Shown piece after piece: positions 24,301 through 25,918 of a stretch of DNA of 36,877 nucleotides. The notes beneath the pieces are model-generated. The model was not told the origin of the DNA and did no database searches. It saw nothing but the letters and a program-made list of their open reading frames with translations. Every line of letters begins with the position of its first letter. Position 1 is the stretch's first letter. Source of the stretch: Microcaldota archaeon (GTDB lineage Archaea > Micrarchaeota > Micrarchaeia > Anstonellales > SKW190); NCBI GenBank assembly GCA_026414265.1, contig JAOAJI010000011.1, positions 1 to 36,877 of the forward strand, read 5' to 3'. A program made the position numbers and the translations under genes.

Positions 24301-24716
24301 AAAACTTCAGAAAAATATTCAGATTAATTTTTCCTAATGAAGAAGGCTTTTTAGAACTGGACAAACCAAACAATCCCTTTGAATCTGGATTACACATCAA
24401 AGTAATTAGAGACAACAAAAAGAAAAACTTGGAATCACTTTCTGGAGGAGAAAAGTCTATGCTTGCTATCCTTTTAATTCTTGCAATGCACGCAACTAAA
24501 ACAGCGCCATTCTATATCTTTGATGAAGCAGATGCTGCTTTAGACAAAGAAAACAGCAAAAAATTCGGACAACTGATAAGAGAATTGGCAAAAACAACAC
24601 AGATCATTGTTATAACTCATAATGACATAGTACTGAAATACTCAGACAAAATAATAGGTGTGACAAAAAATCAGAACGCAATATCAGAAGTCTATGGAAT
24701 AGCTATCAAATCTTAA
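21363..24716 (+). CDS. smc: Chromosome segregation protein SMC
   Basis: Walker A GPNGSGKSNIVDA, coiled coils, hinge, LSGGEKSM signature, YIFDEADAALD Walker B. Confidence 0.97.
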   Translation: MAVIEKIVLHNFKSFKKAECFFGNGVIEITGPNGSGKSNIVDAIKFCLGEMNMKSLRAKSIKDLINENANIASVCIKFSNPNMEVKRIMNREGKVVYRINDEKVRRSDIINFLYNIDLDPSFYNVIPQGQVQKIVEMEPKKRRELIDALAGIAEYEEKKKEALRELETVQNRINEAQLILGERTAYLDSLQKEKEIAEKYIQAKEDFTRCRLSIIKKELMTFEEELKHNQAKKNSLTEQLKNNENELKSLESKLKNIEEKKKNFVDKINDLTKKEQLSKELANLNAEVKIIEKDIASLTEKINLCQNDKAMVLNKLKELDIESETMNKEIVTKTNQLKSLEQESTKIEKNDSLFKELNDLKTKLNELDNQISLFAQKKFEIVNEITKLNEKSNLIKSELDSIHLKLNQSGPSKENSVKELMIQKSKTESMIKTLFQEEKNLNNELPELDKKILELKEKVAELRINTKTNPFQSIISDLKTKINGIHGFVYELIDYEEEYSEAVFASGGNRINYLVVDDLDTAKQLFEFLKRNKYGRITCIPLKELRINEILNIEQSALKESLGLVKDYIKTKEKYRKVVDFVFGNTILVNDFENAKKFLKLNIRIVTLQGELFEPSNVVSGGFAKNLQFNLNKLEKLEKELTSLIERKKFVFSELQRIRNEMNELRQKRTETDIKLKEHEVMDKLRDDEIKALAKRKQDLNNELEVIHKQLEKTNQELVAVNQHTESIAKRKSEIINLISELEEKQRKLYEQSVNKSEKLDLISKLKSEVEVIKERMNSNEKYKKELNQKFEEIEKSTKTIQEELNNFYNQKKTKILEIENIQSLIKQLDEELGKKSKEYKLLEEEYQNISNERGKLILLREKLMNELQKIEVKLAQTETKYKDLELELKREDVRFEFLDLPKEELENKMKEAEKILNEYGSVVNLKAPEMYAEKAKSVLEAKEKVDKLNEEREAIIKFISEIEEKKKDIFITTFSNINENFRKIFRLIFPNEEGFLELDKPNNPFESGLHIKVIRDNKKKNLESLSGGEKSMLAILLILAMHATKTAPFYIFDEADAALDKENSKKFGQLIRELAKTTQIIVITHNDIVLKYSDKIIGVTKNQNAISEVYGIAIKS

Positions 24717-24724
24717 TAGTTAAC

Positions 24725-24735
24725 TTTAAAAAAAT
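24725..24735 (+). promoter_or_regulatory. Candidate TATA-like element for leader/DAHP synthase transcript
   Basis: TTTAAAAAAAT about 25-30 nt upstream of the leader ORF SD/start. Confidence 0.4.
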
Positions 24736-24757
24736 TATTTTGCAATTTTGTGATACT

Positions 24758-24856
24758 ATGGAAAGAGCTAAACCAAAAACCATCAACTACTTCTATTATT
24801 CTAGATTCTTTTGGTTTAGCTTTTTCTATTACTATTTCCGCTTTTTCTGGTTCTAA
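24758..24856 (+). CDS. Putative aromatic-amino-acid leader peptide (MERAKPKTINYFYYSRFFWFSFFYYYFRFFWF)
   Basis: ATG preceded by GTGAT (24750-24754), the same SD form used by neighbouring genes; 18 of the last 22 residues are F/Y/W; TAA stop at 24854; located upstream of a DAHP synthase. Confidence 0.85.
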   Translation: MERAKPKTINYFYYSRFFWFSFFYYYFRFFWF

Positions 24857-24963
24857 TTAACTGCTTGGGTCCAGAAAAAGTCCTAAAAAAATTAAAATCT
24901 AGTTCTCTTTTTCTGGCTCAAGCTTTATGTTAATTGCTACCCTAAACTAAAGGAGGTAAAACC
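24758..24963 (+). promoter_or_regulatory. Putative ribosome-mediated attenuator with mutually exclusive RNA pairings
   Basis: 24841-24850 CTTTTTCTGG and 24907-24916 CTTTTTCTGG are both perfect complements of 24871-24880 CCAGAAAAAG; 24806-24819 is complementary to the DAHP synthase SD region 24942-24955, while overlapping 24809-24829 is complementary to 24758-24778. Confidence 0.75.
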
Positions 24964-25797
24964 ATGAAACAAAAAATGATTGAAAAAAAATTGGATGAAG
25001 AAAAAAACAACAAGAATCAAAACATAAAAAGGATTTTAAGAAAAAGACCTTTGCTGATAGCTGGCCCTTGTGCAATTGAAGACAAAGAATCGCTTTACGA
25101 GATCGGAAAAGCAGTAAAAGAATCTGGTGCACATGTATTAAGAGGCATGGCATTCAAACCAAGAACCAAACCTGAAAGTTTTCAAGGCCTTGGCGAACTA
25201 GGCTTACAAATACTGGCAGAAGTAAAGAGAACATTATCTATCCCAGTGGTAAGCGAAATTGTTGATACTAAACATATTGATTTGTTCTACAAATACGATG
25301 TAGATATATTGCAAATAGGTAGCAGAAACATGGACAACTACGAGCTATTGAAGGAAGTAGGGAAAACTGATAAGTTTGTTTTGTTAAAAAGAGGATACGC
25401 GTCGACACTTGAAGAATTCTTGGGCGCAATAGCTTACTTGAGAAACGCAGGAAACAATAACATTATCCTGTGCGAAAGAGGGATTAAAGCGTATGCTAGC
25501 TCAACTAGAAACATACTGGACCTTGGAATAGTTAACATACTAAAAACTTTGGATGAAACTAAAGACCTGACAATAATAGTAGACCCAAGCCATGCAGCAG
25601 GAAGAAGAGACTTGGTAATTCCTTTTGGTTTAGCTGCTTTAGCTGCTAATGCAGATGGGTTAATTGTGGAAGTCCATAATAAACCTGAAACTGCTTTGTC
25701 TGATAAAGACCAACAAATAACTTTGGAGGACTTTAAGTCATTAGCAGTGAAAACAAATAGATTGATTAGTACTAGCAAACTGCTTAATAAGTTTTAA
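24964..25797 (+). CDS. aroF: 3-deoxy-7-phosphoheptulonate (DAHP) synthase, type I-beta
   Basis: LIAGPCAIED, RGMAFKPRTKPESFQGLGELGL, LQIGSRNMDNY, VDPSHAAGRRDLV; strong SD GGAGGT at 24952-24957. Confidence 0.94.
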   Translation: MKQKMIEKKLDEEKNNKNQNIKRILRKRPLLIAGPCAIEDKESLYEIGKAVKESGAHVLRGMAFKPRTKPESFQGLGELGLQILAEVKRTLSIPVVSEIVDTKHIDLFYKYDVDILQIGSRNMDNYELLKEVGKTDKFVLLKRGYASTLEEFLGAIAYLRNAGNNNIILCERGIKAYASSTRNILDLGIVNILKTLDETKDLTIIVDPSHAAGRRDLVIPFGLAALAANADGLIVEVHNKPETALSDKDQQITLEDFKSLAVKTNRLISTSKLLNKF

Positions 25798-25846: not shown

Positions 25847-25918
25847 GCCACGGTAGCTCAGGGGGAGAGCACTCGGCTGAAGACCGAGGGGCCGCAGGTT
25901 CAAATCCTGCCCGTGGCG
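25847..25918 (+). tRNA. tRNA-Phe (GAA)
   Basis: Cloverleaf: GCCACGG/CCGTGGC acceptor, GCTC/GAGC D-stem, CTCGG-CTGAAGA-CCGAG anticodon arm, GCAGG-TTCAAAT-CCTGC T-arm. Confidence 0.96.

Follow-up and report, generated by a model that had tools for sequence, protein, structure and literature searches.

Leader-peptide attenuation is a textbook bacterial mechanism. Attenuators of the trpL, pheL and hisL type (related comparative study: PMC1262725) combine a short leader open reading frame (ORF), which has its own Shine-Dalgarno (SD) site and codons for the end products of the pathway, with a stop codon beside alternating hairpins, ahead of a biosynthetic operon. Arrest peptides of the tnaC and erm type also let a ribosome stalled on a leader ORF decide downstream expression, but what they respond to, by way of the nascent chain, is free tryptophan or a drug. 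In the archaeal literature found, regulation of aromatic amino acid synthesis is described only via DNA-binding proteins, namely TrpY with its TRP box, the trp repressor of Methanothermobacter, and Tar/TK0271 of Thermococcus, which bind at promoters (PMC6737238). Upstream ORFs are stated in general terms to regulate in archaea too (PMC10219788). No characterized archaeal leader-peptide attenuator was found in the open-access literature, an absence that is weak evidence. Archaeal terminators use U-tracts as their signal and do not strictly require a hairpin; the minimum binding site of the archaeal terminator factor aCPSF1 is two U4 tracts (PMC8716108).

The locus described here has the anatomy of the bacterial trpL, pheL and hisL leaders. 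It differs from these in that the host and its RNA polymerase are archaeal, that no common sequence or Rfam model connects it to them, that the would-be terminator hairpin often competes with the SD block of the leader itself, that the position of the U-tract is variable, and that the leader precedes both DAHP synthase operons and AroA'/AroB' operons. As with TrpY and Tar/TK0271, an archaeal pathway for aromatic amino acids is the apparent target, but the signal would reside in the transcript. As with arrest peptides, a stalled ribosome would decide downstream expression, although the runs of aromatic codons suggest that it is tRNA charging that is sensed. In nearly all copies, one U-tract of at least four residues, and often two, can be seen after the leader stop, and these would serve as the termination signal known from aCPSF1; regulated, ribosome-controlled termination at U-tracts, as proposed here, is not described for that system (PMC8716108).

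The window, meaning the whole 36,877-nucleotide stretch of DNA analysed, encodes aRF1, aIF-1A and aIF-2 beta, in agreement with the archaeal host that had been claimed. All features given below lie on its forward strand. The leader ORF (24758–24856) has 32 codons, 18 of them aromatic, and translates as MERAKPKTINYFYYSRFFWFSFFYYYFRFFWF followed by a stop; its last 22 residues comprise 10 F, 6 Y and 2 W. It is preceded by an SD-like GTGAT (24750–24754), which is GTGRT in the relatives aligned with it, and 107 nt separate its stop codon from the ATG of aroF (24964–25797; SD site AAGGAGGT at 24950–24957). These are the ORF, composition, SD site and spacing of the original prediction, which had also named the downstream gene correctly: matches to NCBIfam TIGR01361 (302 bits vs. 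a cut-off of 268) and PRK08673 identify it as 3-deoxy-7-phosphoheptulonate (DAHP) synthase, the proposed regulated gene. The richness in aromatic codons far exceeds that expected by chance. Within the 600 nt upstream of aroF, up to 10 aromatic residues occur in a stretch of 12 codons, compared with 7 or fewer in 400 dinucleotide shuffles (p<0.003). A TATA-like element (TTTAAAAA..., 24725–24736), located by motif scoring, is a candidate promoter for the leader and aroF. Most relatives likewise have TATA-like boxes, ~20–46 nt 5' of the SD block, and these support a candidate promoter ahead of the leader.

The window's family has no other genomes in the set, and conservation was therefore assessed at the level of the order and beyond. 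An aroF gene was found in 30 of the 84 genomes of the same order, in 31 loci (protein ~50% identical). Upstream of 26 of these 31 loci is a short leader whose last residues form an aromatic run, typically FFSF(S/G)Y (e.g., MVSNGEAKYYSWFGFFSFSYNQ, MKITEVAKTNVFSFGFFSFSYWY, MSNKAKVNNKVFYFFSFSFWY and MLQNQKINTTLFLFSFFSFGFWF). Twenty-five of the leaders are complete, and for one (L012) only the tail is present, at a contig end. Five of the 31 loci (L005, L006, L022, L024 and L025) have no leader of this type upstream of aroF. The 4.5-kb contig with aroF at L022 (G012:C42) looks bacterial; it has, by eye, a LysR-like reading frame upstream, and an unrelated short ORF rich in aromatic residues, MLRISASVTEFYFYYFTYGKAGFAVMR, lies 482 nt 5' of aroF. 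Leaders at aroF occur in other orders too, in families f22, f24, f25 and f27 (FGFSFGYYQ, FWFSFGYFG, FFYSFSY, FSSFSFDYFYW and others), and are missing ahead of the genes for DAHP synthase in families f20 (9 genomes), f21 (3) and f26 (1). A search for aromatic short ORFs ahead of aroF in relatives had been suggested as a check, with a lack of conserved aromatic richness named as the outcome that would speak against the leader; the 26 loci and the four families elsewhere show that this richness is conserved.

The conservation is specific to one reading frame. Over the last 12 codons of the 25 complete leaders, there are 0.52 aromatic residues per codon in frame and 0.06 and 0.11 in the other two frames. 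Counted from the start codon that follows the GTGRT block, the AGCTTYRGCTWT motif lies a whole number of codons away in 13 of 13 scorable loci (45–60 nt), a count that ignores kinship. The combined aromatic enrichment against shuffles has p ~3e-27, a strength that is overstated, as related genomes were treated as independent.

The aromatic codons in these last 12 positions are TTC (52), TAT (45), TTT (44), TGG (11) and TAC (5). Sensing of all three aromatic amino acids, as originally proposed, is consequently plausible in the window copy only; with TGG at 11 of 157 aromatic codons, the relatives would mostly sense Phe and Tyr. The low share of TGG fits a separate control of Trp. No such leader was found in the regions upstream of the trpE genes of the same order. 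Several of the trpE promoters carry TGTACA, sometimes as a tandem pair, directly before a TATA-like TTTAAATA (L151, L153, L156, L159, L160, L167 and L168), a motif that we take to resemble the TRP box of TrpY. If it is a TrpY-type operator, the trp and aro genes of one genome would be under different control mechanisms. No TGTACA was found in window positions 24700–24963, where a TrpY-type operator was sought. The hisG upstream regions contained no His-rich leader, which says little, as hisG is usually not the head of its operon.

The leader is not confined to aroF. In the AroA'/AroB' route, dehydroquinate is formed from aspartate semialdehyde with no DAHP synthase, and the first genes of its operons are thus non-homologous to aroF. 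In G090 (family f13, locus L217), the leader MRNAKVCISGNSFFFSFSYY, ending in a stop, precedes a lysC-asd-aroA'-aroB' operon encoding aspartate kinase, aspartate-semialdehyde dehydrogenase, ADH synthase (AroA', TIGR01949) and dehydroquinate synthase II (AroB', PF01959), which continues with aroD, aroE/K, aroA/C, pheA, an aminotransferase and prephenate dehydrogenase. This operon was found through one exact-type match to a degenerate DNA pattern of the motif, whose matches are otherwise dominated by chance. In G175 (family f20, locus L225), the leader MEIAKASLRSCRSASYFSSFSYGSY, again ending in a stop, precedes aroA'-aroB'. Four other genomes have aroB' matches. No clear leader was found in two of these (G016 and G095), and in the other two (G096 and G098) the sequence is cut off too early to judge. 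The occurrence of the same leader before a non-homologous operon implies that it tracks the pathway rather than the gene.

The RNA of the window region 24730–24963 is predicted to be strongly folded (−62.2 kcal/mol vs. −36.8 in shuffles, z = −6.0), a feature that the original prediction had not mentioned. Segment 1 (24758–24778), which contains the start codon and first codons of the leader, and segment 2 (24809–24829), which contains the aromatic codons for FWFSFFY, form the arms of a 21-bp pairing within the ORF; the two 21-nt arms are 90% complementary, and the remainder are G-U pairs. Downstream of these, the sequence CTTTTTCTGG occurs twice, as segment 2' in the last leader codons (24841–24850) and as segment 4 (24907–24916, with U5 at 24908–24912). 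Each copy is complementary to segment 3 (CCAGAAAAAG, 24871–24880), and the hairpins 2':3 and 3:4 are therefore mutually exclusive. Their calculated energies are similar, approximately −16.5 kcal/mol for 2':3, in which 2' is the proposed antiterminator arm, and approximately −15.6 kcal/mol for 3:4, the proposed terminator side. We assumed that a ribosome covers ~14 nt beyond its A-site, a value from bacterial ribosomes. With this footprint, a ribosome at the leader stop codon would mask 2' and end before segment 3, and 2' would stay free if the stall came at one of aromatic codons 1–10 of the 18. The predicted stall and stop positions in the window thereby select different hairpins, which is the geometry of a bacterial attenuator.

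Pairings of this kind are supported by covariation in an alignment of 12 relatives (A2) that leaves out the window. The 3:4 hairpin is paired in 95.6% of cells, with 6 double-change cells, compared with 44–58% when the arms are slid. The leader SD block (segment A) pairs with segment 3, and this pairing together with 1:2 is paired in 89.4% of cells, with 13 double-change cells, compared with 36–50% when slid. Because both use segment 3, A:3 and 3:4 cannot coexist. Sequence comparison of the relatives thus yields two mutually exclusive conformations with a common segment, both supported by covariation. Across 25 loci, most leaders have a 3:4 hairpin at their stop codon (combined p ~5e-18, with related sequences treated as independent). 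Families of other orders have the same layout with different sequences (L122, for instance, has AGGGTTAGCTCCC-ATG, GGGAAAAACCC and GGGTTTTTCCC).

A covariance model (R1) built from the 12 relatives of A2, without the window sequence, matches the window genome once only, at the leader (24747–24849, E = 4e-4), and all its strong matches in other genomes are at aroF. Weak matches away from aroF (in G067, G033, G007, G036, G020 and G028) were inspected one by one and are not leaders. A conserved A-rich stretch, loosely TTAGTGnTAnTRATA, was also seen between segment 4 and the aroF SD site in most relatives (e.g., L011, L018, L013 and L034).

We consider it likely that the leader is a ribosome-mediated attenuator that turns aroF on when charged Phe- or Tyr-tRNA, and in the window copy perhaps Trp-tRNA, is scarce. 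That it would belong with the bacterial type of attenuator leader was part of the original prediction, and is supported by the conservation of the leader and by covarying exclusive hairpins that the prediction did not contain. From the anatomy of the locus, we infer transcription and translation of the leader, stalling, termination and an OFF state formed by 3:4, as follows. A promoter just 5' would give a transcript with the leader as its first ORF. With ample charged tRNA, the ribosome would run to the leader stop (24854) and cover 2', leaving segment 3 free to form with segment 4 a terminator-like hairpin that, with its U-tract, would end transcription before aroF. With scarce charged tRNA, a stall on the aromatic codons would leave 2' free to pair with segment 3, blocking 3:4, and aroF would be transcribed. 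The U-tracts after the leader stops and the retention of 3:4 are the reason for proposing termination as the outcome.

In most relatives, the competitor of 3:4 would be the leader SD block (A:3) or the stalled ribosome itself, instead of 2'. Their last aromatic codons lie 4–12 nt before segment 3, unlike in the window, and a stalled ribosome may thus mask segment 3 directly, or A may pair with it around the ribosome. A 2'-like arm is apparent by eye in L009. This lack of uniformity in the competitor, A:3 in relatives and 2':3 in the window, counts against the attenuator model, as do the leaderless DAHP synthase genes of f20, f21 and f26 and the late pathway genes missing from the window assembly. 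That archaeal terminators can do without a hairpin (PMC8716108) also counts against the model, in which 3:4 would stop RNA polymerase. With a conserved ORF, reading frame and codons, with exclusive pairings and with a position beside aromatic operons, the leader resembles a bacterial attenuator in its anatomy; its membership in the strict sense, that of termination controlled by charged tRNA, is putative.

The best surviving alternative, though a doubtful one, is that the leader encodes a TnaC-like nascent arrest peptide, in which FSF(S/G)Y would stall the ribosome in response to free Phe or Tyr, not to uncharged tRNA, with the stall being passed on through the same hairpins. Across orders, the leaders retain both the Ser/Gly positions and the order F-S-F-(S/G)-Y, and sensing of codons alone would not need these Ser and Gly residues. 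The constant AGC codons are, however, accounted for by 1:2 pairing, and the aromatic residues interchange among F, Y and W. Moreover, the window copy has no FSF(S/G)Y yet is richer in aromatic codons, and a stall at high Phe or Tyr would have to switch the operon off, that is, with the opposite wiring.

It is also possible, if unlikely, that the same leader is read out differently, either with A:3, whose long hairpin precedes the first U-tract, as the OFF state and 3:4 as the ON state, or through a switch in RNA stability or in the translation of aroF. The polarity of the switch could indeed be reversed, and in many copies it is between segments 3 and 4 that the first U-tract is found. In the minimum-energy fold of the window, the aroF SD site is paired with leader sequence, and the leader UAUUUCC can pair with it. 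Against a different readout, segment 4 is usually well upstream of the aroF start, and the spacer is A-rich and variable. Furthermore, nearly all copies retain 3:4, whereas the arm that competes with it is A in most relatives and 2' in the window, making 3:4 the likely effector.

A riboswitch or a T-box-like sensor of tRNA, with the ORF incidental, might be considered from the strong and conserved structure. It is very improbable, as the conserved part consists of codons in one frame and 1:2 lies inside the ORF; searches against the Rfam leader, riboswitch and T-box families gave no match, the only hits (at E up to 1 and 0.5) being tRNA-Phe and chance matches. Chance, by which a T-rich, terminator-like region after an upstream gene yields a functionless Phe/Tyr-rich frame, is the least credible explanation: the U-richness of archaeal terminators and the position of the window region after the smc stop codon speak for it, but it is at odds with the frame specificity, conserved starts, in-frame spacing and covariation, and with a restriction to aromatic operons that includes a non-homologous one while nothing similar is seen ahead of trpE in the same genomes.

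An operon with aroF as its first gene is present in at least one relative (G060), in the order aroF-aroB-aroD-aroE/K-aroA-aroC-pheA-tyrA-aminotransferase. By searches that were positive in 14 of 14 control genomes, the window assembly (90.7% complete) was found to lack chorismate synthase, prephenate dehydratase and TrpE. For this reason, the window aroF may be an orphan, or the remainder of its operon may be unassembled; a single missing contig could account for two of the three absent genes, since the aro genes clustered in G060 include those for chorismate synthase and prephenate dehydratase. A gene for tRNA-Phe (anticodon GAA, 25847–25918) lies ~50 nt 3' of aroF on the same strand. AroF and this tRNA, possibly the one sensed by the leader, could be on a common transcript. 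The window genome (G000) has IlvC, which is rare in the order, as well as aroF and the leader; no convincing leader was found in the upstream region of its ilvC.

Phe/Tyr leaders thus occur across several orders of one class, before two non-homologous first steps of the pathway, and archaea have probably evolved ribosome-mediated attenuation or share it with bacteria. If so, transcription and translation would be coupled in these archaea and termination at U-tracts would be under the control of the ribosome, or, more generally, the position of the ribosome would control transcription or the fate of the mRNA. The leader would also link two non-homologous routes to dehydroquinate by their regulation. 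The leader ORF and the covariance model provide a bioinformatic handle for further archaeal attenuators, and such a natural switch would make the coupling of transcription and translation in archaea testable.
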